Source of the DNA: Ideonella alba
Lineage (GTDB): Bacteria > Pseudomonadota > Gammaproteobacteria > Burkholderiales > Burkholderiaceae_C
Reading direction: 5' to 3'
Assembly (NCBI RefSeq): GCF_018069875.1
Contig: NZ_JAGQDF010000015.1
Span: 1 to 64,000 of the forward strand
DNA length: 64,000 bases
Shown: positions 65 to 22,858 of the stretch, one piece after another
Layout of the letters: the number at the start of each line of letters is the position of its first letter
Position numbering within the stretch: position 1 is the stretch's first letter
Position numbers and translations under genes: made by a program
The notes under the pieces: generated by a model
The model's input: the letters and a program-made list of their open reading frames with translations, nothing else
What the model was told of the DNA's origin: nothing
Database searches by the model: none

Positions 65-288
65 CTGGGTCGATACACGACGGCGCGCCGGTCCGCGTCT
101 ACAACCTCGCCAAGACCATCACCGACTGCTTCAAGCTGCGCAGCAAGGTGGGCCTCGACGTGGCGCTCGAAGCCCTTCGCGAGGCCTGGCAGCAGCGAAA
201 AGTGACGATGGATGACCTGTGGCGCTACGCCAAGGTCAACCGCATGACCAACGTGATGCGCCCCTACCTCGAGGCGCTGACCGGATGA
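65..288 (+). pseudogene. abiEi antitoxin, 3' remnant cut by an insertion sequence
   Basis: The frame ends in a typical AbiEi C-terminus: PVRVYNLAKTITDCFKLR, then GLDVALEALREA and a tail ending NVMRPYLEALTG. AbiEi is the DNA-binding antitoxin and autorepressor of the AbiE type IV toxin-antitoxin system. The N-terminal winged helix and most of the protein (usually about 200 or more residues) are missing, replaced by the insertion sequence. The stop overlaps the ATG of the abiEii remnant (ATGA), the normal arrangement of an abiE operon. The remnant should be non-functional. Confidence 0.8.
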
Positions 289-398
289 GCGCCGACCGCT
301 CGGCTTCGGTGCTCGCTCGCCTGCTGAATCGGTCGCGCAGCACGGGCGAAAACTACAACCTCCTGCTCTTGCGGCTTGCGGTCGAGCGGCTGCTGTAG
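285..398 (+). pseudogene. abiEii toxin, 5' remnant
   Basis: ATG at 285 overlaps the abiEi stop. The frame starts MSADRSASVLARLLNRSRS and continues with NYNLLLLRLAVERLL before a stop at 396-398. That is how AbiEii nucleotidyltransferase toxins begin (SASVRARLLN, then LLLTRYALERFL). The whole nucleotidyltransferase core is missing. The frame runs directly into the truncated end of the helicase gene on the other strand, so a deletion joined the two genes at about 390-398. The normal protein is about 300 residues and only about 36 codons remain. Confidence 0.75.
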
Positions 399-1303
399 CT
401 GAAATCGCGCCGCAAGTAGGCCGAGATCAGTTCGTAGAACTGAACTTCCTCTTCGGCAGGCGAGAACGGGTTGGTGAGCGCGTGGCGCTGGGTGTACGGC
501 ACGTACTCCAGCACGTCGCGCCGCAGGGTGCGCTTGATGAAGGGCTGCAGTCCGCGACGCAGCGAATGGATGTCGCCGTCGATGCTGCTGTACTGTGAAC
601 GGAAGCTGCGCTCGTCACCGAAGATTTCTTCGTCAATGAGCGAGGTCAGGCCGTACAGCTCCATCAGGGAGTTCTGCAGGGGCGTGGCCGTCAACAGCAG
701 CTTCTTGCGCCCAGCCAAGGCGCGCTTCAGGGCCTGCCCAGTTTCATGGCTCTTGCGGTGGGCGTTGCGCAGCTTGTGCGCTTCATCGATGACGACCAGG
801 TCCCAAGGTACGGCGCCGAGCTGGGCCTCCATTCGGGCTGCGAAGTGGATGGACATGATGCTGATGACATCGCGGTCCAGCGGGTCGTAGGTACCGCCTT
901 CACGCAGCAGGTGCCAGGTGCGCGCGTCCAGTACCTCGGACGGCAGGTTGAACTTGTCGGCCAGCTCTTGCGCCCACTGCTTGCGCAGCGATGCGGGGCA
1001 GAACACCAGCAGGCGGCGACGGCGCTCGGCCCAGAGTTGGCACAGCACCAGCGCGGCTTCGATCGTCTTGCCCAGGCCGACCTCGTCGGCCAGCACCACG
1101 CCCTTGCTGAGGGGGTTGTTGAGAGCAAAGAGAGCGGCATCGATCTGATGCGGGTTCAGGTCAACACTGGCATCGAACAGCGACTGCGCCAGGCGGTCTT
1201 CCTCTGAAGCCGCACGACGACGTGTGAGCTCCCATGCAAAGTACTTGGCGTGGTGTGCCGTGGTGCCCGCTGCTTCAACTGCGCCTTTGACTCCGCCTGA
1301 CAT
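353..1303 (-). pseudogene. SNF2-family helicase, C-terminal half deleted
   Basis: ATG at 1303 follows AGGGAGAAAAC. The product has the N-terminal ATPase lobe of a large SNF2/RapA-type helicase: Walker A at residues 73-80 (EVGLGKT), DEAH at 173-176, and motif III LLLTATPLQNSL near 203-214. The family is usually around 1000 residues and needs a second RecA lobe with motifs V and VI. Here family-like sequence stops after AYLRRDFSY (near position 397), and the last residues are read from the reverse complement of the abiEii remnant. Without lobe 2 it should not act as a helicase. It may once have belonged with the helicase-PLD operon that follows. Confidence 0.8.
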
Positions 1304-1588: not shown

Positions 1589-4213
1589 TTACAGCGAGGG
1601 CGAGAAAGAAGGCGCGAGTGCATTGATCTTGTCTATGTTCTGATTGAACTGGGGGTCATCAGTTCGCAATGAGTCGGGCAGGATTACCCCGTGGAGTTGC
1701 GATCTCAGATCATCCCATCGCCTTAGCAGAACCTGCCAGTTGTACTCGTCGTAGGTGCCCTGAAAAACGAGGGGCCAAACGCGGATGCGGGGCCACTTCT
1801 CAGGCGCCCACCCTTCACGCTGCGCTCGATGGAGCATCTGCTCCCAATGGCTGCCCACGCGGTCCACCCGTCCGATCTGCTGCTCGACAACGCCCGGATT
1901 CCACTCTGGGTGGAGCAGCAGCACGGTACGACAGGCGCGATGCAGGTTGAGGCCTTCACGGCCGACAATGGACTGTGCCACCAGCACCCTAGGGAAGCTG
2001 TGTGCGCGGTTGAAGGCCAGTTGCAGTAGGCGCCGAGTAGGCTGCGACGTGCTGCCACGCATCAATCGCGCAAAACTGCCGGTGGGCGCGTCGTACTCAT
2101 CGTGCAGGCGCTGGAGAATGTTGGCCCACAAGTCCCCCACCTCGGCATCGTCAAGGCTGCCGTCACGGTTCCTGTCACCTTCGTCTCGGTCGCACAGGGC
2201 ATTGATCAGGTCTTCGAATCCTTGAGCCCAAGCGAGATCGCTGCAGGTTTCGGCGCCGGGCCCCAGGTGTTCGTGCAGGGCCGCAGCCAAGGTAGAACGG
2301 CTGAGCTGCGGATCACGCTCCATGGCCTGCTGAAGGGCCCGCAGCCGGGGGTTGGGCGGCAGTTGAGCCAGGCCGAGAGACAGGCGGCGAGCAAGTCCAT
2401 CGCGTAGACGTTCACGTGTGTTTTCGAGAGCCTTGTACTGCTCGCCCAGCCGCGCCTGCAACGCCTCGCGGTGGAAGGCGCCAGGGCGGCCCAGATCTCG
2501 ATGGGCCAGTTGAACTGCGTGCCAATCCTCGTCGTCAAGAGTGGACTGCGCCCAGGGACGGCGCTGGTCCAAGTGTCGCAGCAGCGCGCGTGCGTTGAGC
2601 ATGCGCGCCAGGGCCTCCATCGGCCGCGTGAACCTGCCGAAAACAAGCACCTTCTCGCCCTCGGCGTCGGCTGCCTCAATGGCCTGTATGGCTGCCCGAA
2701 GACCTGGGTGCTCGTACAGCGCATCGGCGCTGCGGTCAAAGGTCTGGCGCAGCAGGCCGAGCCAATAGGTTACTCGGGCCTGCGTCTTGTCGGCGGCGAG
2801 CACCGCCTCGTCCACATCGGAGTGGTCCTTCTCAGGGTCAGCGTCGGCAGACAATTCCTCGTCGGATGCCGCGGCGCGAGCTCCTGCATCCAGTACGGCA
2901 CTCAGACCATGCCCGCTGCCCAGGCTCAGGCGCAGACGTTGTGCGGCGGCACCCGTCACTTGGCCGCCCATCAGCGACAGCGCCTCGGCCGCGCAAAGTG
3001 CACGGGCCCAGGGCGCCGAGAGCGACTCCATCGGCACCAGCACCGGCTGATGCTCGCGGTAGGCATGGGCGGGCAGACCGGTGCCCCGTTGGAAGGCGAT
3101 GACCGACTCGGCCTCGCGCTTGTCGCGGCGCAACACATAGGGGCTCAATGCGGCATGGAAGAGCTGGGCAGCCTCAGCAAGTCTGTGGCGTGCCTCGGCT
3201 TGTGCGGGCAACGCGCGGACTTGCTCGACTGCCTCTGCATAGGCACGGATCGCCGGCTCAAGGGGGGCCGCAGCCACGCCGATGCGCTGAAGGGTGTGAT
3301 GCCATTGGGTGGCTGCCAGTTCAATGGGCGTGGCGGTCATGCCAAGGCGGCGCGCTTCTGGCTGGGCCAGAATGACCTGATCGAGCAGGCGCGTCAGGCC
3401 CGACTCTTCGCCCCGGCTCTTGTGCGCTTCGTCGATGATGACTAGATCAAAGTGCCCAAGACCGAGACCCACCGCCTGCTCAAGCCAGTGGCGCAAGGTA
3501 CCGGTCTTTGCGTACTCGGCGGCCTCTAAGGAGAGCTTCCACGGTGTTCCCTCGATCAACTCGTCCATCAACCGGCGTTCGGCGTTGCCGTCACGGCGCT
3601 TCGCGATCCGCACGATATCGGCGGCAGCACGGCGAGCGCGGTCATCCGTGGCACGGTCGTCACCGTGGTAGCCGTTGGGCAGGCGGCCAGTGGTGGCCGC
3701 TCGCCAGTGCGCATACAACTCCGGCAGCAACACCCACCGCCACGCCTCGGACTTGGCACCCAGACGCCAGTTGGTGAAACTGTGGGAAACAAGCAGCACA
3801 TTTTGCGAGGCCCAGGGATGGGCCGGCGGGTCGTCGGACTTCGCCTCGTCAACCGCCCAGGCATCGAGGTACTGCCTTAGGCTTCTCAACACCGGCTGGC
3901 ACATCACCTGGCCGTGCTTGAACTCGTCCACCCATTGGTAGCCCAAGCCTGGCGGAATCAGCACCGCTACTCGGCCCCCGGCCTCGATCACCGCCTTGGC
4001 CGTCATCACGGCGATGCGCGTCTTGCCCATACCCACTTCGTCGGCCACCAGCAGTCCGTGGTTCACCAAGCGCTCGGCAACAACGCGCAGGCTGCGGCGT
4101 TGGCCCTCGTTCAGCGCCTGCGGGGCCTCTCCGCCAGGTTGCGGAGTGCTGGCCATCTCGCGCAGTGCATCAGCAACCTGGCCCCAGCCAGCGAAACGCG
4201 GCGCGCGAGTCAT
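1589..4213 (-). CDS. SF2/SNF2-type helicase, third gene of helicase-PLD operon
   Basis: An 874-residue ATP-dependent nucleic-acid motor. Visible motifs are Walker A (VADEVGMGKT, lysine 64), DEAH at 261-264, TAT at 293-295, and in the C-terminal lobe VLVFGRFTRPMEAL and the motif V/VI segment GREGLNLHRA followed by QQIGRVDRVGS. This is the two-lobe layout of RapA/SNF2 helicases, with an unusually long insert between motifs I and II. The start at 4213 is chosen because it overlaps the stop of the upstream gene as ATGA; an upstream extension of 75 codons reads as low-complexity sequence and overlaps that gene. It probably translocates on DNA for the neighbouring Tdp1-like protein. No methyltransferase is present. 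Confidence 0.85.
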   Translation of the reverse strand: MTRAPRFAGWGQVADALREMASTPQPGGEAPQALNEGQRRSLRVVAERLVNHGLLVADEVGMGKTRIAVMTAKAVIEAGGRVAVLIPPGLGYQWVDEFKHGQVMCQPVLRSLRQYLDAWAVDEAKSDDPPAHPWASQNVLLVSHSFTNWRLGAKSEAWRWVLLPELYAHWRAATTGRLPNGYHGDDRATDDRARRAAADIVRIAKRRDGNAERRLMDELIEGTPWKLSLEAAEYAKTGTLRHWLEQAVGLGLGHFDLVIIDEAHKSRGEESGLTRLLDQVILAQPEARRLGMTATPIELAATQWHHTLQRIGVAAAPLEPAIRAYAEAVEQVRALPAQAEARHRLAEAAQLFHAALSPYVLRRDKREAESVIAFQRGTGLPAHAYREHQPVLVPMESLSAPWARALCAAEALSLMGGQVTGAAAQRLRLSLGSGHGLSAVLDAGARAAASDEELSADADPEKDHSDVDEAVLAADKTQARVTYWLGLLRQTFDRSADALYEHPGLRAAIQAIEAADAEGEKVLVFGRFTRPMEALARMLNARALLRHLDQRRPWAQSTLDDEDWHAVQLAHRDLGRPGAFHREALQARLGEQYKALENTRERLRDGLARRLSLGLAQLPPNPRLRALQQAMERDPQLSRSTLAAALHEHLGPGAETCSDLAWAQGFEDLINALCDRDEGDRNRDGSLDDAEVGDLWANILQRLHDEYDAPTGSFARLMRGSTSQPTRRLLQLAFNRAHSFPRVLVAQSIVGREGLNLHRACRTVLLLHPEWNPGVVEQQIGRVDRVGSHWEQMLHRAQREGWAPEKWPRIRVWPLVFQGTYDEYNWQVLLRRWDDLRSQLHGVILPDSLRTDDPQFNQNIDKINALAPSFSPSL

Positions 4214-6189
4214 GGTCTGCCTCCCGAGTGCAAGGGAGGCAAGCCCCAGGCCTGAGCGATGCGGTGCAGCGCCTCCAAGTAAGCCTGGGCGGCGCCTGTT
4301 GAGCCGGCGAGGGCGTGCTCCGGCCGGAAACTGTCGTCCGTCAGCGGCTGCAGCGGGTGAAACGGCAGTCTCTTGAAGCGCTGGACCGTATCGCTGTCCT
4401 TGGCGAGGATCATCAACTGCTCCAGTCGCAGGCACCAAGCGCGCCAGTCGGCGGCGGGAATGAGCACCTGCCGACGCGCGATGGTATCGATCAACTGCAT
4501 CATCTGCCGTGTGGCGTACTGTCCTGCGCCGGAGGCTGCCGTCTCGGGCGCCCCTGGACGCGCGCTCAAGGGGCCATCGAGGTGTTCGTCATCGTCCGGG
4601 CTGGCGTCCTCCGGCGCCGCGGGGTAGGCCCCGAGGGCGCTGGTGATGTCCTGGACGTCCATCGCTGGCAGCGGCACGGGCGCAATGCGGCCGAACTCGT
4701 CGATCACGGGGATCCAGGTTTCCGGCTGTCCAGGGCAGCGCAGGCAGGCCTGGGGCGGGCACACTGGATCGGGCCAGATCCAGGCGCCGGCTTCGCTACT
4801 ACAGGGCTGTCCCTGAGGGTCGAGCAGCTCAATGCCGGCGGGCACAGGGTCGGTCGTGAAGAGACGCGGCGCGGCAGGGCCTGGCTGCCACTGTAGGAAG
4901 GCCACCAAGGGCGCCACCCAGGCCGGCGGCCGCTCAGGCATCTCGGCTCCCGCGGCCAGCACCGCGGCGTCGGACAGAGCCGATCCTGGCTCGAAGGGCA
5001 GGAGATGGGCGATGGAGGAGCGCTCAGGGTCGCGCCGATCAGGCATCAAGGCCAAATCGCCAGTGGCCAACACCACGCCGGCTTCAAGATTTCCGGCCTT
5101 TGAGATGGCTGCCTTGCAGAAGCCTGGGTTCGTGAGATTGCCGGAACCCAGGTAGAGCCAGCCGCTGGTACACAGGTTCGGATTCGACGGGCTCGGATTC
5201 CAGCTGATGATGAACTTGGCGTGCAGGGTCCGCTTGTGATCGGCACCAAAGAGGTGTTCGGCACGGCTGGGCGGCAGCAAGCCCCAGCCTTCGCTTGCAA
5301 TGGCCTCGCGCGACGCGGCAATCGCCTGGCAGCCAGATTCGTTGACCACCAGTTCGACCCTGCTGGTCTTGGTGAGCAGGCTGTTGCGTCGCAGCGTGGT
5401 GACGATCCCGGCGGGAACACTGGGCAGCGCATCAGGGTTGGCATGGCCCTCATAGAAGCCCGAGCCCATGACCAGATGGCTGCGCCGCTTCGCGCCGGCG
5501 TGGTGGGCCACCCAGTCGGGCAACTGATCGAGCAGGCTCAGGGCTCGCGAGTCGAGAAACCGCGGTTTAACGCCACTGCCAACCCGCGCGCAAGCCGCAG
5601 CACCATCGTCCAGGCCTGCGATCAGCGCCAAGGTGGGCCCATCGGACTGTCGGACCGAGGCTACGAGCAGGCGCTGATCGAAGTACCTCCTAAGCCAGAT
5701 CAGCAGATCGGCGGCCGCTGCGATATCGGCGCAGCGCAGACGGGCGTCGTCGTCGGGTTCTTGCAGCTCGGCATGGTCGACCTCGACGCACCAGGCCATG
5801 TCCAGGCTCTCTTCTACGGTCTGGGTGGTCCAGTTACCGGTGGACACGATCAGGCGCAGACGCCAGCCGGGCTCCGCGTCCTCGCAGCGGAAACCCAGCA
5901 GCGCCACCTTGGCATGCAGCAGGTTGAAGGGCAATGCGTCGGCGGCATACACCGGCAAGTGCACGACACCCGGCACATCGCCCCAGGCCAGGCGAGGCTG
6001 ACCTGGGTCCAGCACCAAGGCCAGCACCACTCGGCCGGACGCCGCGCGCTGATGCCGGGTGGTGAGGGTGAAGCGATCGGTGGCGTCCACCATGAAGGGC
6101 GCGTCGGCAGAGTAGCCGCAAAGCCAGCCGAAGGCGCCGACATGCCCCTCGGGCGCATCGAAGTGCTGCAGCAACGAAGGGCGCGTCAT
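4210..6189 (-). CDS. Tdp1-like phospholipase D superfamily protein
   Basis: A 659-residue protein with two PLD half-sites. The first is H92-x-K94 with N119 (LLHAKVALLGF, then STGNW); the second is H323-x-K325 with N351 (LHAKFIISW, then LGSGNLT). Neither has the aspartate of the usual HxKxxxxD motif. The H-K-N pattern is that of tyrosyl-DNA phosphodiesterase 1, which cleaves 3'-phosphotyrosyl and other 3' adducts. Activity is therefore probably a nuclease or a DNA 3'-end phosphodiesterase. About 300 C-terminal residues follow without recognised motifs. Start ATG at 6189 overlaps the previous stop, and its own stop overlaps the helicase start, so the three genes are translationally coupled. A defence role is inferred from context. 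Confidence 0.75.
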   Translation of the reverse strand: MTRPSLLQHFDAPEGHVGAFGWLCGYSADAPFMVDATDRFTLTTRHQRAASGRVVLALVLDPGQPRLAWGDVPGVVHLPVYAADALPFNLLHAKVALLGFRCEDAEPGWRLRLIVSTGNWTTQTVEESLDMAWCVEVDHAELQEPDDDARLRCADIAAAADLLIWLRRYFDQRLLVASVRQSDGPTLALIAGLDDGAAACARVGSGVKPRFLDSRALSLLDQLPDWVAHHAGAKRRSHLVMGSGFYEGHANPDALPSVPAGIVTTLRRNSLLTKTSRVELVVNESGCQAIAASREAIASEGWGLLPPSRAEHLFGADHKRTLHAKFIISWNPSPSNPNLCTSGWLYLGSGNLTNPGFCKAAISKAGNLEAGVVLATGDLALMPDRRDPERSSIAHLLPFEPGSALSDAAVLAAGAEMPERPPAWVAPLVAFLQWQPGPAAPRLFTTDPVPAGIELLDPQGQPCSSEAGAWIWPDPVCPPQACLRCPGQPETWIPVIDEFGRIAPVPLPAMDVQDITSALGAYPAAPEDASPDDDEHLDGPLSARPGAPETAASGAGQYATRQMMQLIDTIARRQVLIPAADWRAWCLRLEQLMILAKDSDTVQRFKRLPFHPLQPLTDDSFRPEHALAGSTGAAQAYLEALHRIAQAWGLPPLHSGGRP

Positions 6190-7559
6190 GTGTCCAGCCT
6201 CGCTCGGCCGTGGGTTTGCAGCCATCCGTCCAACTCGTTGTGGAGATCCAGATTCAGCAGGAACAGGTTGTGGATGCGAAACGAGGTTCCCGACGGCCAG
6301 GCCAGCGTGTCCATGGCAGAGGGCTGCGGAGCAGCGGAAGGTTCGTTGGCATCGTCGGCCGGCGCTGGCGGCGCCCCTCGCCGAAACGCGCCGCCGGGCC
6401 GAACCTCGTTATGCGCAAGGCGGAGCACACGGCCGTCACGTTGCACCAAATGCTTCAACACGGCCGTGTCGGATAGCTGCACGCACTGGCGGCAGAAGTC
6501 GGTGGCGTCGGGGTCGGCATGGTTCAGGTCGAGGAAGGATCCAGCCAGCGTGCGCAGCCCGTTGAGGGCCACCAGTACTGGCTGAGCCAGCGGAGCACCC
6601 ATCGGCAGGCATTCGCGCGGTGTGGCGGCTACCTGCACTTCCACGGCATCCAGCAGGGCCAGGGCCTGGTCGCGCAACGCGAAGAGATTGGCGCCCGCCT
6701 GCAGGTCGTGCCAGTGATCGGGCTCGATCGGGTCTGGCCGATCTGCCCAGGCCCAGCGTTTCGGGCTACGGCGCGACAGGTCCACCCAGTCGAGCGCGGC
6801 ACGCCGCCTTCGCGTATCAACTGAGGGCTCACCAGCGGAGCCCGCCTGCAGGCAGGCGCGCAGCGCAGCGCAGGCTTCAGATTCGAGCGCCATGCGGGGC
6901 GACAGCGCGCTGATCAATCTTTCGGACCTCAACTTCAATTCTGCCCCACGGACCCAATTGAGCAAATGCTCGACCAAGGGCACATTGGCGGGGGAGTACC
7001 CCTGGAATGCCGCGCGCAGCACGGCTCGACCCGTATCGGTCGCCTCCAAGGCGTTGAATCGGCGCGTGCCCCCTGCAGCCAAGCCCAAAGGCTGAAGGGC
7101 CGAAGTGGTGCCCATGCGCATCGGCTGGCTGACATAAAAGCTGCGATGGCGCACAGCTTTGAATTCCATGCCGTGCTCGCGCGGTAGCTTCGACGTGCCA
7201 CGCAGACGTGGGTCCGGTCGGTCATCCGAGCCCGACTGAGGATCGCGCCGACCAATGGCCAGCCAGCATGCCAGCGCTTCGATTGCATTGGCACATTCCA
7301 CGTTACTGACCCTTGAGCCGGCCTCGCGCGCCAACTCGGCAACGTGAATGCCCAGGGTGGCTAGGACGAGTTGCTTGCCGAACCAGACCGACCCGAGCCC
7401 TGGTACGGCCAGTTCGTTGAACCTACGGACGGCCGCGCCCAGACCCAACGTTCTGACACGGCGCTCGTCGGCAACCGTAGCCGGGCCCAGTAGTCCCCAA
7501 GACATCGACAAGCGCAGCCTCCCTGCAGCACAATCCGTTTCGGATTGAACACCGGTCAT
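6186..7559 (-). CDS. Unknown protein, first gene of helicase-PLD operon
   Basis: A 457-residue protein I do not recognise. It has no signal peptide, no membrane segment and no zinc-type cysteine clusters. The N-terminal third has hydrophobic helices (GKQLVLATLGIHVAELAR and CANAIEALACWLAIG). The middle holds a basic stretch TRRRRAALDWVDLSRRS, and the C-terminal part is helical with a proline/alanine-rich linker. ATG at 7559 is preferred; TTG at 7592 would add 11 residues. Because it is first in an operon with a Tdp1-like enzyme and a helicase, it could be the sensor or specificity subunit, but nothing in the sequence proves that. Confidence 0.6.
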   Translation of the reverse strand: MTGVQSETDCAAGRLRLSMSWGLLGPATVADERRVRTLGLGAAVRRFNELAVPGLGSVWFGKQLVLATLGIHVAELAREAGSRVSNVECANAIEALACWLAIGRRDPQSGSDDRPDPRLRGTSKLPREHGMEFKAVRHRSFYVSQPMRMGTTSALQPLGLAAGGTRRFNALEATDTGRAVLRAAFQGYSPANVPLVEHLLNWVRGAELKLRSERLISALSPRMALESEACAALRACLQAGSAGEPSVDTRRRRAALDWVDLSRRSPKRWAWADRPDPIEPDHWHDLQAGANLFALRDQALALLDAVEVQVAATPRECLPMGAPLAQPVLVALNGLRTLAGSFLDLNHADPDATDFCRQCVQLSDTAVLKHLVQRDGRVLRLAHNEVRPGGAFRRGAPPAPADDANEPSAAPQPSAMDTLAWPSGTSFRIHNLFLLNLDLHNELDGWLQTHGRARLDT

Positions 7560-7613: not shown

Positions 7614-8588
7614 TCACCGCGGCAACTCGACTCCTCGAAGGCCATGCGACGGTGATGGATCGCGATGGTCGACCGATCGGTCGGTTGTCGCAGCTGCAGA
7701 TATCTCTCGAACATAGCTGCTGACGGACCTCGCAAGCTTCCGATCAGCCAAGTCTCCAGACGTGGCCAGCGCCTGGCCCAGTTGCTTCCAGGCCTCGACT
7801 GCCTCCGCCCGCGCCGCAACGGCAACACTGCTGCGCTTGCTACTGGATCTGACCGTATGAAGCCGCCCCTCCTGGCCTGCTTTCAGGCGCCACAGGGGTT
7901 CATAGTTCCTGCTCGTGCCACGTGTAGCCTGCCGCGTCGCTTCAGCCTCGACCCCGTACCCGCGCAGCTTCTCCGCAAACGTCTCGCGCCAGCGATGCAG
8001 ATCAGCCTTGCGCGGATTGAGCCGCCGGCCCTGGCGTGACTCTGCCCGCACGCTGATGTGCACATGCGGGTTGGCCTGGTGGTCGTGCAGCACCATCACA
8101 TAGGTGTGCTCGGCCAGTTCGACCCTTGCGAACTCGCGTGCCGCGCGCTGCACCGCCAGCGGGTCGGTGCCTCGCGGCATGGACAGCATGATGTTGTAGG
8201 CCTCGCGCCGCTGACCCGGTGCAGACTCCTCCGGAATCTTCGAACCGCCCCAACGCCACTCGTCGGCCAGGTCGTGCAGGCTGTCTTTGCCCCGCATCGT
8301 CTCGCCTCGCTGGTCCTCGATCTCCAGCCGACCGTTCTTGCTGATGTAGCGCAGGTGCGCCACGATGGCCTTCATGCCCCGCCCTCCCCCGGTCACCTTG
8401 ACCATCACCTGAGGCGCCCGTCGCACCACGGTGGCTTCGATGCTCCGGCGGATGACGGCGGCTCGCTGGCGCATCGCGTCCGGGTTCAGCCTGGGCTCAC
8501 GGGGTGCCCGTACGCTGCGATTGCCTGGGTAGAACAGCCGATCCCCCCAGGTGACCAGCATGCCGTCGATGTCGTGGGGCAAGGCCAT
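7614..8588 (-). CDS. VirD2/MobA-type relaxase
   Basis: A 324-residue DNA relaxase that would nick at oriT and pilot the strand during transfer. The metal-binding histidines are visible in VLHDHQANPHVHISV (H...HxH), and a candidate catalytic tyrosine lies in HLRYISKNG after the GGGRG motif, as in the MobP/VirD2 group. It lacks a C-terminal helicase or primase domain, so this is a mobilization rather than a self-transfer relaxase. ATG at 8588 follows GAGGAGACGCCC. It sits 23 bases after the MobC-like gene and points toward the defence operon, which it may co-transcribe. No coupling protein or secretion genes are visible. Confidence 0.85.
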   Translation of the reverse strand: MALPHDIDGMLVTWGDRLFYPGNRSVRAPREPRLNPDAMRQRAAVIRRSIEATVVRRAPQVMVKVTGGGRGMKAIVAHLRYISKNGRLEIEDQRGETMRGKDSLHDLADEWRWGGSKIPEESAPGQRREAYNIMLSMPRGTDPLAVQRAAREFARVELAEHTYVMVLHDHQANPHVHISVRAESRQGRRLNPRKADLHRWRETFAEKLRGYGVEAEATRQATRGTSRNYEPLWRLKAGQEGRLHTVRSSSKRSSVAVAARAEAVEAWKQLGQALATSGDLADRKLARSVSSYVREISAAATTDRSVDHRDPSPSHGLRGVELPR

Positions 8589-8611
8589 GGGCGTCTCCTC
8601 AGGTTCGTGGT

Positions 8612-9193
8612 TCAAGGATTGGCTTGGGTTGGCCGAGATGGCGCGCTTGGCCGGGCCCGTGGCTGCAGTGCTGACAGGACCGGTGCCACACGCTCCAGGT
8701 GCGAGCGAACCTGACCGGCTACCGTGTCCAGCAGCCCTCGGTAGGCGCGGGCCGACTCGGCATCGGCCTGGCGCAGCAGCGCGCTCAGCCGGTGGACGTT
8801 GCGGCTGAGGGTGGCCAGCTCGGCGCAGGAGGCGGTCAGCGCCGCAAGGTGAGCGTCGCGCCCGCCACCGGCAGACAGCACGGGCACGTCGGCTATCAGG
8901 CCTGCCAGGTAGGCGCCACGCGACAGGCCCGCAGCGCGCGCGCCCGCGGCGAGCTGGCGAGCCTCCTCGGCCGACAGTCGAATCGACAGCTTGACGGTCG
9001 CAGCACTCGCCGAACCAGCTGTCGGCGCATCCATGCGGCTCGCTTCGCCTTCCAATTCGACCCCGAGATCACGCGCCACCGCGCCACGGACCAGCACCGA
9101 CACGCTGACCCGATCGGCCTGCGCACGCGCCACCAGCGCAGCCTTCAAGCCGCGCATATCTACCGTAACGAAGTCATGGGCAATGGTGTTCAT
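8612..9193 (-). CDS. MobC-like relaxosome accessory protein
   Basis: A 193-residue protein. The middle reads KLSIRLSAEEARQLAAGARA, then GLSRGAYLAGLIA, the ribbon-helix-helix style of MobC/TraJ proteins that bind oriT and help the relaxase open the strands. The C-terminal part is helical (LATLSRNVHRLSALLRQ), also typical of MobC. Start ATG at 9193 is the last before the large intergenic region; longer upstream readings have no family-like sequence. It lies just before the relaxase and diverges from the StbA-like gene, with the probable oriT between. Confidence 0.75.
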   Translation of the reverse strand: MNTIAHDFVTVDMRGLKAALVARAQADRVSVSVLVRGAVARDLGVELEGEASRMDAPTAGSASAATVKLSIRLSAEEARQLAAGARAAGLSRGAYLAGLIADVPVLSAGGGRDAHLAALTASCAELATLSRNVHRLSALLRQADAESARAYRGLLDTVAGQVRSHLERVAPVLSALQPRARPSAPSRPTQANP

Positions 9194-15141: not shown

Positions 15142-16410
15142 CTACGACGCGCCGGCTCCGGCCCCCGCAGCGGACTCGAACAACGGGTACTTGACGTCGC
15201 TCTCGGCGTTGATCACCACGGTGCCGGCCGCAACCAGCTTGTCGAGGGCCACCTCGATCGAGGCGTCGCCGGTCTCGGCGGCGAGCAGCGACTTCAACAA
15301 GCGCCGCAGCGCGGCCGGCTTCGTCGGGCGATTGACACCGACCTTGCGAAGGTTCTCGGTGATCCTCTTGATGTCGGCGTCGGACACCGACTTCTTCGGC
15401 GACGGGGACGCAGGGACAGCGCCGGTGCCACTCGGCGCCACAGCGGCCGGAACGGCCAACACTTTGCCTGGCCCAGCCGCCACGCCCCTTGCCCCAGCCG
15501 GTGTGGGAGCTTCCGCCTTCTTGGCAGGCACGACCTTCGGCGGCGACGCCTTCTTCGCCGCTGACGAAGACGCTGGCGTCTTGGCAACTGGCTTCTTCGC
15601 AGCGACCGGCTTGGCCACCGCCTTCTTCGTTGCGGCCTTCTTCGCAGCAACCTTCTTAGCTGGCGCCTTCTTGGCGGCCACCTTCTTCGCCGCGGCCTTC
15701 TTCGCTGGTGGTTTCACCTCGCCATGGGGCTGTCGGCGCACCACGAAGCCCATCGCCTTTGCATGCTCCAACATGGGCTCGTAGCCCTTGTCGTTGGCGA
15801 CGACGACCATCGCCGACTCGGGGTTCCGCGACGCGATGTAGCCCATGTAGAACGACAGATGGAAGTCCAGCGCGTTCTTGCCCGACTTGCTGATCGGCAC
15901 GGCCGTAGCACCGGTCCCGAACGATGCGAAGCGCTTTTCGACCTCCCGCTGGTGCGGCCCATGGAACACCCAGACCTGGCCAGCATCCGGGACCAGCGCC
16001 CGCAGCTCCGCATCACTAGGCTGGACGTTCTCGAAGTCCAGCAGCACATGCGTACCAGGCACCGATGCGCGCGTCGGCGAAACCCGCGGGATCACGCGTT
16101 TCGCCGGGTACTTGACCGCGTTTCTCGCCAGCTTGTCCCGCACCGCCTGCGACATATCGATCTGGCAGTGATCTGCCACCTGCAGAAGGTAGAGGAGCAC
16201 ATCGGCGACCTCCTCGCCGATGCGTTGCTTGGCCGCGGCGTCTTCGTGCGCAGTCCGGGACTCCTCAGGCGTCTGCCACTGGAAGATCTCCGCCAGCTCG
16301 GCCGCCTCAACCATCAGGGCCGTCGTCAGGTTCTTGGGTGTGTGAAACGGCTGCCAGTCGCGCTCTGCCGCGAAGTGCCGCAACTCAGCCTGCAGTTCAC
16401 CAAGGTTCAT
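15142..16410 (-). CDS. MazG-type pyrophosphohydrolase fused to an NYN nuclease
   Basis: A 422-residue three-part protein. Residues 1-105 are a MazG/RS21-C6-like nucleotide pyrophosphohydrolase (EAAELAEIF, E35/E38, and EEVADVLLY, E67/D70). Residues about 118-230 are an NYN/PIN-like nuclease with acidic residues at D125 (LLDFENV), D182 (ALDFHLSFY) and D207 (ANDKGYEPML). Residues 235-285 are a Lys/Ala tract of repeated KKAAAKK units like histone H1 tails, followed by a helical C-terminal domain. ATG at 16410 follows GGGAGACAGG. The parts are normally separate genes; no stop or frameshift lies between them. It may remove nucleotides and cut RNA under stress or infection. Confidence 0.75.
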   Translation of the reverse strand: MNLGELQAELRHFAAERDWQPFHTPKNLTTALMVEAAELAEIFQWQTPEESRTAHEDAAAKQRIGEEVADVLLYLLQVADHCQIDMSQAVRDKLARNAVKYPAKRVIPRVSPTRASVPGTHVLLDFENVQPSDAELRALVPDAGQVWVFHGPHQREVEKRFASFGTGATAVPISKSGKNALDFHLSFYMGYIASRNPESAMVVVANDKGYEPMLEHAKAMGFVVRRQPHGEVKPPAKKAAAKKVAAKKAPAKKVAAKKAATKKAVAKPVAAKKPVAKTPASSSAAKKASPPKVVPAKKAEAPTPAGARGVAAGPGKVLAVPAAVAPSGTGAVPASPSPKKSVSDADIKRITENLRKVGVNRPTKPAALRRLLKSLLAAETGDASIEVALDKLVAAGTVVINAESDVKYPLFESAAGAGAGAS

Positions 16411-19204: not shown

Positions 19205-20413
19205 TCAAGACCTTCGGGGGTCACGAAATGGCAGCACGGTGCTCGGCGCAGACGCTGAACTGGCAGGCGCATCCGCCGACTGACGGATGCGGGCCAGTTG
19301 AACGACGTTGCCTCGCCCCTGAAAGTAGCCTTCGGGCAACCCAGCCAGCATCTCGATATCGTGCGACGCAAGGCCGAGATGCCGAGGAATGGCTTCCAGC
19401 GGCATCACGTTCTCATCGACGAGCAGGTCGATCGTGCGACGCAGCAAGCGGGGTCGCTCAGGCGCTCGATCGCCATCCCCCGGTTCCGACTTGGCGCCCC
19501 ATCGCGCCGACCGACGCTTGAACAGCGCCTGAGCTCCTTCATCGTCCAGGAGTTTGAGAGCCCGCAGCCGCATCAAGATCGCGCCAACGGATACGCCCCA
19601 ACGACGCTTCATCAACAGCAAGTCGTCCAAGGTCACCGGCATGCGCACTTCGGATGCGAAGGTCTCCGCGGGCAGGAGAAACGCGCCCGCAAACCTGTGG
19701 GCCTGCTGTTCAAGTTCCTTGTGACGCTCCCGATCGGTCGGACGTGCGATGTGCCTGTGCAGGATCAGGTGACCGAGTTCATGGGCCAGGTCGAAGCGGC
19801 TTCGATAGCCGTTGTCCTTGTCGGCGGAGAGAAGTACCAGCGGTCTTCCAAGCACTGCGCTCCACGCAGACAGGCCTTCGATCTGCGCGATACCAGTCTC
19901 TTCACGGACGAGCACAACCCCAGCGCCTTCGATGGCCAGCGCCAAGTCCTGGACAGCCGACCGCCCAAGGCGCCAGAGATCGCGACACTCCGCCGCCGCC
20001 AGTTCGATCTCTTCTTTGGTGATCTGCTCAGGATCGGTGAAGTTGCGGCTCGGCAGGTTCAGCGCCGGGAAGTCGACGAACTCGGTCAGGGCCAACGCAA
20101 TGTCTTGAGCCCACTCCATCCTAGCTTCCAGCATGGCCCGGGCAGCCACATGCGCAGAGGCGTTGCTCCGGAAAAGCGGCAGCGAAACCTTCTCCGCGGG
20201 CGGCCTGGTGAACCACTCGGGCGTAACATTGACAACGTCGGCCAATCGATCGAGCGCTTCTCGCTCTGGAGCTTGGGCTCCAGCGCGCCACTTGCTCACC
20301 GTCGCGGGCGACACCCCCACCAGCGAAGCGAGCTGCGCTTGGGTCAGGCGGCGCGCAGCCAACATCTGGCTGAGGCGATCACACTGGAATCCCTGAACGC
20401 CACCGCGGCTCAT
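19205..20413 (-). CDS. XRE regulator fused to ImmA/IrrE metallopeptidase
   Basis: A 402-residue protein. Residues 10-65 form an XRE helix-turn-helix (LTQAQLASLVGVSPATVSKW). Residues 150-300 form an ImmA/IrrE zinc peptidase with HELGH at 211-215. In phages and mobile elements ImmA cleaves a repressor after DNA damage; in other systems the XRE-ImmA fusion acts as an antitoxin or regulator. ATG at 20413 overlaps the stop of the upstream 216-aa gene (ATGA), so the two are translationally coupled and probably partners. Confidence 0.85.
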   Translation of the reverse strand: MSRGGVQGFQCDRLSQMLAARRLTQAQLASLVGVSPATVSKWRAGAQAPEREALDRLADVVNVTPEWFTRPPAEKVSLPLFRSNASAHVAARAMLEARMEWAQDIALALTEFVDFPALNLPSRNFTDPEQITKEEIELAAAECRDLWRLGRSAVQDLALAIEGAGVVLVREETGIAQIEGLSAWSAVLGRPLVLLSADKDNGYRSRFDLAHELGHLILHRHIARPTDRERHKELEQQAHRFAGAFLLPAETFASEVRMPVTLDDLLLMKRRWGVSVGAILMRLRALKLLDDEGAQALFKRRSARWGAKSEPGDGDRAPERPRLLRRTIDLLVDENVMPLEAIPRHLGLASHDIEMLAGLPEGYFQGRGNVVQLARIRQSADAPASSASAPSTVLPFRDPRRS

Positions 20414-21243: not shown

Positions 21244-21840
21244 GTGCCCAACCTCGCCCAGCAAGTCCTCGCGCACGCCGCCTCGATTCCGGAAGGCGCC
21301 AGCCTGTCCGCCAAGGCTCTGCTGCACCTGGGCAGCCGGGCTGCGGTGGATCAGGCGCTGTCGCGCCTGGCGCGCAGCGGCGAACTGCTGCGCGCCGGGC
21401 GGGGCGTCTACGTCCTGCCGGTGAAGGGCAAGTTCGGCGCACGGGCACCGGATGTCGCCAAGGTGGTCCAGGAGTGGGCCAGCCAGCGCGGCGAAACCGT
21501 CGTCGGTAACGGCGCGGCTGCAGCGAATGCGCTGGGTCTGACGACCCAGGTGCCGGTGCGCCAGGTCTTCCTGACCTCGGGCCGCAGCCGCAAGCTCAAG
21601 CTCGGCGCGCAGACGGTCGAGTTGAAGCATGCCCCGCCGTGGCAACTGCTCTATCCAGGGCAGGCCGCGGGCGAAGCCATCCGCTCGCTGGCCTGGGTAG
21701 GGCCGTCGGGATCTCAAGCGGCGCTCGGTCAGCTCAGGGAAAGGCTGCCGGCGTCGGAACTGCTGGCCGTCGCCAACGCGCGCGCGCGCCTGCCCACCTG
21801 GCTTGCGAGCCAGGTCAGCAGCCTGGTGACCCGTGCCTGA
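21244..21840 (+). CDS. AbiEi-type antitoxin (DUF6088-like)
   Basis: A 198-residue protein. The N-terminus is a winged-helix DNA-binding domain (SLSAKALLHLGSRAAVDQAL, then GELLRAGRGVYVLP) and the rest resembles the AbiEi/DUF6088 antitoxin body (NALGLTTQVPVRQVFLTSGR). Antitoxins of this kind repress the operon and counter the nucleotidyltransferase toxin. The start is GTG at 21244, 22 bases after the -10 box. The stop overlaps the toxin gene by eight bases. It is intact, unlike the abiE genes at the left edge, and of a different subfamily. Confidence 0.8.
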   Translation: MPNLAQQVLAHAASIPEGASLSAKALLHLGSRAAVDQALSRLARSGELLRAGRGVYVLPVKGKFGARAPDVAKVVQEWASQRGETVVGNGAAAANALGLTTQVPVRQVFLTSGRSRKLKLGAQTVELKHAPPWQLLYPGQAAGEAIRSLAWVGPSGSQAALGQLRERLPASELLAVANARARLPTWLASQVSSLVTRA

Positions 21841-22858
21841 ATACTTCGCCCTGCCGCGCGAGGACCAGCGCGAGGTGCTACTCGTCGCGGCAGAGCGTTC
21901 GGGCCGTCCCCTGCACTTGCTCGAGAAGGACGTGTGGGTCGTATGGGCCCTGCACCACCTGTTCACCGGACGGCACGCGCCGTACCTGGTCTTCAAGGGC
22001 GGTACATCGCTCTCAAAGGCCTACGGCGTCATCAAGCGCTTCTCGGAAGATGTGGACCTCACCTACGACATCCGTGCCATCGCTCCGGACCTGATCCAGA
22101 AGGCCGACTCCCCCTGGCCCACATCACGCAGCCAGGAGAAGAAGTGGAGCAAGGCGATCCGGCAGCGCCTTGCCGAACTTGTCAGCGGCAAGCTGGCGCC
22201 TGATCTCACCGAGGCAATCGCCGAGCAGGGGCTACCGGCGAAGGCCCGCGCAGAAGGCGAGCAGATCTTCATCGACTACGAGGCCTTGGGCGAAGGCACG
22301 GGCTATGTGCGCCCCTCGGTCCTGCTGGAGTTCGGCGCGAGATCGACGGGTGAGCCCAACGAGCCGCGACTGGTAGCGTGCGACGCAGCGCCGCACCTGC
22401 CGGACGTGAGCTTTCCATCGGCCGTGCCCCAGGTCATGCGCCCCGAGCGCACGTTCTGGGAGAAGGCCACGGCCATCCATGTCTTCTGCGCCCAAGGCAG
22501 CTTTCGAGGCGGTGACCGCTACGCGCGCCACTGGCACGACGTGACGCGGCTCGATGCTGCCGGCTTCGCCGACAGCGCCGCGAAGGACCGCGCATTGGCG
22601 CTCGCCGTCGCAGAGCACAAGAGCATCTTCTTCGCCGAATCGATGCCAGACGGTGCGCCCATCGACTACCGCGCAGCGGTCACCGGTGCACTGGATCTGG
22701 CACCGAGCGGCGAAGCGCGGAAGACGCTGGCCGAGGACTACCAGCGCATGATCGAGGACGGCCTGCTCTTGGACGACGCCGAACCCTTCGACGTCCTGCT
22801 GCAGCGTTGCCAGGCGCTTGCGCTCAAGGTGAACGCGGCGGCGCTGGGGGCCGCATGA
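21833..22858 (+). CDS. AbiEii-type nucleotidyltransferase toxin
   Basis: A 341-residue protein of the AbiEii/DUF1814 group. The nucleotidyltransferase motif is complete: GGTSLSK at 56-62 and RFSEDVDL with D73 and D75, then ERTFWEKATAIH in the middle. Related toxins (MenT, AbiEii) transfer nucleotides to tRNA or another target and stop growth, which aborts phage infection. The start is GTG at 21833, inside the antitoxin gene. It is the last island gene before the chromosomal xth. Confidence 0.85.
   Translation: MPEYFALPREDQREVLLVAAERSGRPLHLLEKDVWVVWALHHLFTGRHAPYLVFKGGTSLSKAYGVIKRFSEDVDLTYDIRAIAPDLIQKADSPWPTSRSQEKKWSKAIRQRLAELVSGKLAPDLTEAIAEQGLPAKARAEGEQIFIDYEALGEGTGYVRPSVLLEFGARSTGEPNEPRLVACDAAPHLPDVSFPSAVPQVMRPERTFWEKATAIHVFCAQGSFRGGDRYARHWHDVTRLDAAGFADSAAKDRALALAVAEHKSIFFAESMPDGAPIDYRAAVTGALDLAPSGEARKTLAEDYQRMIEDGLLLDDAEPFDVLLQRCQALALKVNAAALGAA

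Follow-up and report, generated by a model that had tools for sequence, protein, structure and literature searches.

The stretch of DNA analyzed here, a 64-kb window of the Ideonella alba genome (5.5 Mb) that begins at the first base of its contig (NZ_JAGQDF010000015.1, positions 1 to 64,000), carries a cassette of three adjoining minus-strand genes that we call A, B, and C. Gene A (6186..7559; P0003) encodes a protein of 457 aa from no known family, gene B (4210..6189) encodes a Tdp1-type protein of the PLD superfamily (659 aa), and gene C (1589..4213) encodes an SNF2/RapA-class ATPase (874 aa). All three reading frames are open and of full length. B is counted here from the ATG that overlaps A, and its translated frame, P0002, has 12 extra residues in front; the corresponding frame of C, P0001, has 2 extra residues in front of the 874. 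The original prediction, made from the DNA letters, described the genes as joined by ATGA overlaps, and both junctions read this way on the coding strand: A ends in GAC ACA TGA where B starts with ATG ACG CGC, and B ends in AGA CCA TGA where C starts with ATG ACT CGC.

Comparison across genomes confirmed that the three genes are a real unit. We collected 81 loci anchored on B, comprising the best 80 of 129 confirmed stretches in species genomes and one viral contig; some of them (L070, L076, and L107) had also turned up in the first search. A adjoins B in 78 of the 81, at a distance of 80 bases or less in 77 and of 547 bases in L123, and C is present in 77, a count that leaves out a minus-strand helicase in L127 and includes L129, where C is broken up and starts 1745 bases on. 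Contig ends account for every gap: they cut the three loci that lack A and the four that lack C. Four-base overlaps were found at 34/78 A/B junctions and 53/76 B/C junctions, counts that are biased upward because the start nearest to such an overlap was chosen. Searches from the other end of the cassette agree: with A as the anchor, 4 of the 200 family genomes searched have matches, in five places altogether, the window's own genome included, and the four places beyond the window have B in every case and C in three, the fourth stopping at a contig end. Neighborhood conservation had been set beforehand as a check on the claim that the set is inherited as a unit, and the claim held, as the genes stay together in a fixed order in several phyla.

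The cassette is also mobile, a conclusion supported by a relaxase gene directly upstream, by plasmid copies, by patchy matches within the genus, and by short B-tree branches that join different families. Directly upstream of the cassette, and outside it, lies a gene for a MobA/VirD2-type relaxase (7614..8615, minus strand; PF03432, E = 3.9e-12), beside which a protein weakly similar to NikA, below the Pfam cut-off, is encoded on the same strand. Because of these two genes, the mobilizable setting that had been predicted is a reasonable description. A B-anchored search of 72,556 plasmid records matched 7, all 7 of which also have A and C; 4 of the 7 are typed as conjugative, and the cassette of one plasmid locus (L015) is disrupted. 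On a plasmid of Paracoccus versutus (L014, 8795-11809), A and B share one open reading frame, perhaps through a fusion or a frameshift. Of 16 genomes of the genus, 3 match at the DNA level in all of A, B, and C (the window genome, G076, and G647), and a fourth (G640) matches within C only. In an even sample of 349 genomes of the phylum, A was found in 2, the window's included, and DUF6361, the family of the Azaca protein ZacA, in 4. The B tree holds 79 proteins, of which 66 are from Pseudomonadota; others are from Planctomycetota, Acidobacteriota, Thermodesulfobacteriota, Nitrospirota, and Myxococcota, and 2 are ungrouped. Within Pseudomonadota, short branches mix families and classes (e.g., L081, L082, L088, L124, and L131), with some metagenome bins among them, and the Ideonella copies at L070 and L114 are separate from the window copy and L076.

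The assignment of B as a Tdp1-like PLD protein, made in the original prediction, agrees with both the alignment and a predicted model, which place an H-x-K...N motif in each half of a PLD fold. The first H-x-K (H104 and K106 of P0002) is encoded at 5908..5916, with its asparagine (N131) at 5833-5835, and the second (H335 and K337) at 5215..5223, with N363 at 5137-5139, all on the minus strand. These six residues, invariant in 79/79 aligned B proteins, are the H92/K94/N119 and H323/K325/N351 reported previously, since that numbering counts from the second start, Met13 of P0002. The predicted model has the Tdp1 fold, and its structural matches 1 to 28 are all Tdp1; the Pfam Tyr-DNA_phospho model reaches only E = 0.097 with B.

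Similarity searches link B to Azaca, a three-gene system that the original prediction overlooked. The ZacB model of PADLOC matches B at E = 1.7e-7 (28.5 bits, over positions 110-336 of 586), is the only PADLOC family that matches B at an E value of 1, and matches 10/10 B proteins of the first alignment, among which PDC-M27B, PbeC, a type II enzyme, and DrmC match one protein each (E = 0.018-0.055). Profile-profile comparison of B with ZacB gave E = 2.2e-7, and 9.5e-6 with a larger alignment. By these profiles B and ZacB are homologous, though distantly so: the model gives 526 bits for a genuine ZacB and 28.5 bits for B. An Azaca locus found with the ZacB model in a genome of the same family carries ZacA (DUF6361), then ZacB, then ZacC, which is the gene order of the cassette, and PADLOC confirmed all three; its ZacA led to 8 plasmid loci annotated in turn with a DUF6361 protein, a PLD or hypothetical protein, and a helicase-related protein (hypothetical in one). 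Like B, the ZacB-type sequences have one H-x-K...N in each half and then an N-x-E, in 9/9 cases. One published account groups Azaca and Mokosh under a PLD-like domain (PMC10952713), and another counts ZacC among SF1/SF2 helicases (PMC12278908).

The prediction of an SNF2-type helicase as the third gene also stood: Pfam, PADLOC, and NCBIfam matches place C in the SNF2/RapA class, and its ATPase motifs are invariant. The Walker A motif G-K-T (G65-K66-T67 of P0001) was located by alignment and is encoded at 4019..4027 on the minus strand; its lysine, K66, is the K64 named earlier and is invariant in 55/55 aligned C proteins. C resembles ZacC by the PADLOC model (E = 1.5e-12, 45 bits) and by profile-profile comparison (E = 3.4e-12, and 3.2e-10 with a larger alignment). 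The best PADLOC score of C, however, is with the helicase model PDC-M27C (E = 1.7e-20). These scores put C no closer to ZacC than to other defense helicases.

As originally proposed, A belongs to no recognizable family, since it has no match in Pfam, PADLOC, or NCBIfam. Its AlphaFold model is mostly helical, with a mean pLDDT of 88.8, and has no clear match in the PDB.

The surroundings of the cassette were compared with those of Azaca. A gene pair encoding a PD-(D/E)XK protein and UvrD lies upstream of the Azaca genes in L045 and L047; in Azaca locus L050 the two genes are nearby on the opposite strand, and in L051 a PD-(D/E)XK gene comes after the Azaca genes, where the stretch ends. A pair of this kind also precedes the cassette in L012, L013, and L016 and in 5 of the 78 A-bearing loci (L072, L112, L113, L116, and L121). 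Between the two systems, these pairs are only distantly related (UvrD at about 75-103 bits and PD-(D/E)XK with no cross-match). At L100 and L104, the cassette adjoins a pair of the Azaca type (PD-(D/E)XK at 815 and 808 bits). No DUF6361 gene was found in those two genomes, an absence that is not firm since both the search and its controls returned no match at all, and the 15 kb beyond the L104 pair hold no second cassette. In 12 of the 78 A-bearing loci, genes for an AAA ATPase and a WYL regulator lie upstream, under a rule that includes some weak matches. WYL proteins are the commonest PADLOC class among the upstream neighbors (11 of 93; IetA, 4). L012 adjoins BREX genes, with reverse transcriptase and helicase genes near. 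One contig from a viral collection (L132) carries the AAA and WYL genes, the A-B-C cassette, and the PD-(D/E)XK and UvrD pair together. In Acidovorax defluvii (L126, 14745-15146, minus strand), gene C of the cassette is immediately followed by a fragment that resembles ZacA (62 bits). Neither accessory module was seen directly beside the window copy. Taken as raw counts, these neighbors make the defense context suggestive rather than strong.

From homology, mobility, and context, we infer a role in defense. We think it probable that the three genes encode a single mobile system of three subunits that targets DNA, protects against phages (or plasmids), and operates in the manner of Azaca. In such a system, C would be driven by ATP to travel along, or remodel, the duplex DNA of an invader; A may recognize DNA or couple C to B; and backbone cleavage by B would proceed via a covalent phospho-histidine intermediate. 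Overlaps as tight as these suggest that the three proteins are made in a fixed ratio and form a complex. Some genomes have accessory modules attached, namely a WYL regulator with an AAA ATPase or a PD-(D/E)XK protein with UvrD.

Several observations weigh against this reading. First, A is not detectably ZacA: 10 A proteins searched against PADLOC at an E value of 10 gave no match, ZacA included; DUF6361 matched none of 75 A proteins at an E value of 1; and the hhalign profile-profile comparison of A with ZacA, which gave E = 0.22 with the first alignment, gave 0.35 with the larger one, versus 0.059 and 0.062 for reversed controls. Second, PADLOC ranks the PDC-M27C, DrmD, and BrxHI models above ZacC for C, and the likeness of C to ZacC may therefore be only general SNF2 similarity. 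Third, the phylum label is clustered on the B tree (8 changes, where the least possible is 5 and the shuffled mean is 10.9), and for that reason transfer between phyla is not shown. Finally, 42 of the 78 A-bearing loci have none of the searched partner types upstream on the same strand (a further 10 are too short to judge), and downstream defense genes are few: methyltransferases, mad2, WYL, and LeoA account for 2 of the 98 proteins each and KwaB for 1, with none above 2 among the PADLOC families listed (25 of 44).

A special case of the favored reading is that the cassette is a divergent Azaca, with A being a ZacA that has drifted past sequence recognition while mechanism and origin stayed the same. 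We regard this as possible but not probable. The common gene order, the homology of B and ZacB, their double H-x-K...N with N-x-E, the PD-(D/E)XK and UvrD neighbors of both systems, and, weakly, the colinearity of A and ZacA when they are force-aligned over their full length all point this way. Against it, the profile comparison of A with ZacA is no better than reversed controls, DUF6361 matches 0/75 A proteins, and ZacC is not the nearest relative of C.

The place of the cassette directly downstream of a relaxase gene, and the typing of 4 of the 7 cassette-bearing plasmid records as conjugative, would also suit an anti-plasmid or anti-conjugation system, or an addiction-type stabilizer of the mobilizable element, rather than an anti-phage system. 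This seems unlikely to us, and no toxin or antitoxin family is among the Pfam matches of A, B, and C. A little more doubtful still is a DNA repair or end-processing module carried on mobile elements, in which B would strip protein adducts from DNA ends in the manner of Tdp1 and C would remodel lesion DNA, with no antiviral role. The Tdp1 family has an established role in the repair of topoisomerase adducts, and the uniformly Tdp1 structural matches of B are what such a module would predict; however, the patchy distribution (2/349 genomes in the phylum sample, the window's included), the linkage to WYL/AAA and nuclease-helicase genes in some loci, and the homology of B to the PLD protein of a defense system all fit defense better. 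Least probable in our view is a separate, widespread, and unnamed immune system in which A would have a new fold and a Tdp1-type nuclease would act on protein-bound DNA, such as recombinase or topoisomerase intermediates of an invader, with protein-DNA adducts being sensed rather than sequence or modification.

Other features were noted in the rest of the window and elsewhere in the genome. A truncated SNF2 helicase gene (353..1303, minus strand), similar to the N-terminal part of DrmD_b (259.8 of 950 bits), is a downstream neighbor outside the cassette; used as a query, its product matched nothing above 60 bits in the 81 loci. The same genome encodes a longer relative of this helicase (G000:C30:257977, an open frame of 1018 codons) and has three SNF2-type matches within about 27 kb at G000:C10 17208-43645, perhaps a second defense region. 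Bases 1-77 of the window recur at G000:C19 (100% identity) and elsewhere in the genus (94-97%), and the contig therefore probably ends in a repeated element. The original prediction saw remnants of an abiE system beside the cassette. Positions 79-397 (plus strand) are 90% identical to DNA of another genome of the genus (G649:C187) and hold two pieces that, from their translated ends, are perhaps the end of abiEi and the start of abiEii; neither piece has a Pfam match. A full-length protein of the AbiEii toxin family is encoded at 21833-22855 (plus strand; PF08843, E = 2.5e-37). On the minus strand, one protein has the odd pairing of PIN7 and MazG-like domains (15145-16410), and another combines an HTH with an IrrE-like peptidase (19208-20413; PF06114).

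Among known systems, DISARM has both a PLD protein and an SNF2 helicase in common with the cassette. We rejected membership in DISARM, as the original prediction had. Neither DUF1998 (DrmB) nor a methyltransferase is among the Pfam, PADLOC, and NCBIfam matches listed for A, B, C, and P0004; the DrmD model gives C 73.3 bits versus a cut-off of 610, and the DrmC model matches 1/10 B proteins (E = 0.055), both below the curated level; and the conserved unit of the 81 loci is A-B-C. PDC-M27, a PADLOC system that is itself only a candidate, gives the helicase model that C matches best, and its PDC-M27B model matches 1/10 B proteins (E = 0.018). As to Mokosh, which the original prediction also named, ZacB was the one PADLOC family that B matched at an E value of 1. 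B differs from Tdp1 in that their identity is 10-12%, in carrying about 240 further C-terminal residues, and in being encoded in an operon with A and C.

The nearest known system is Azaca, and "Azaca-like" is, on the sequence comparisons, a fair label for the cassette. The proposal of a new system thus holds in one part: the cassette is without a name in PADLOC 2023 and NCBIfam 2026 and matches no named system exactly, but it is not wholly new, given the three-gene plan and the homologous PLD protein of Azaca. We do not assign it to Azaca itself, since sequence searches for ZacA came back negative, A being unlike ZacA in every such test made. The motif region of the helicases also differs, reading LEQREGRVHR in ZacC and QQIGRVDR in C. 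The two systems nevertheless agree in gene order, in a second protein that belongs to the PLD superfamily and has an N-x-E after its two H-x-K...N motifs, in an SNF2-type helicase as the third protein, and in the PD-(D/E)XK and UvrD genes that sometimes precede either one. If our favored reading is correct, Azaca would belong, as a single branch, to a broader class of systems that join a Tdp1-type nuclease to an SNF2 motor and that vary in their first subunit and in exchangeable accessory modules. Through the H-x-K...N site common to B and ZacB, the chemistry of both systems can be put to a direct test.

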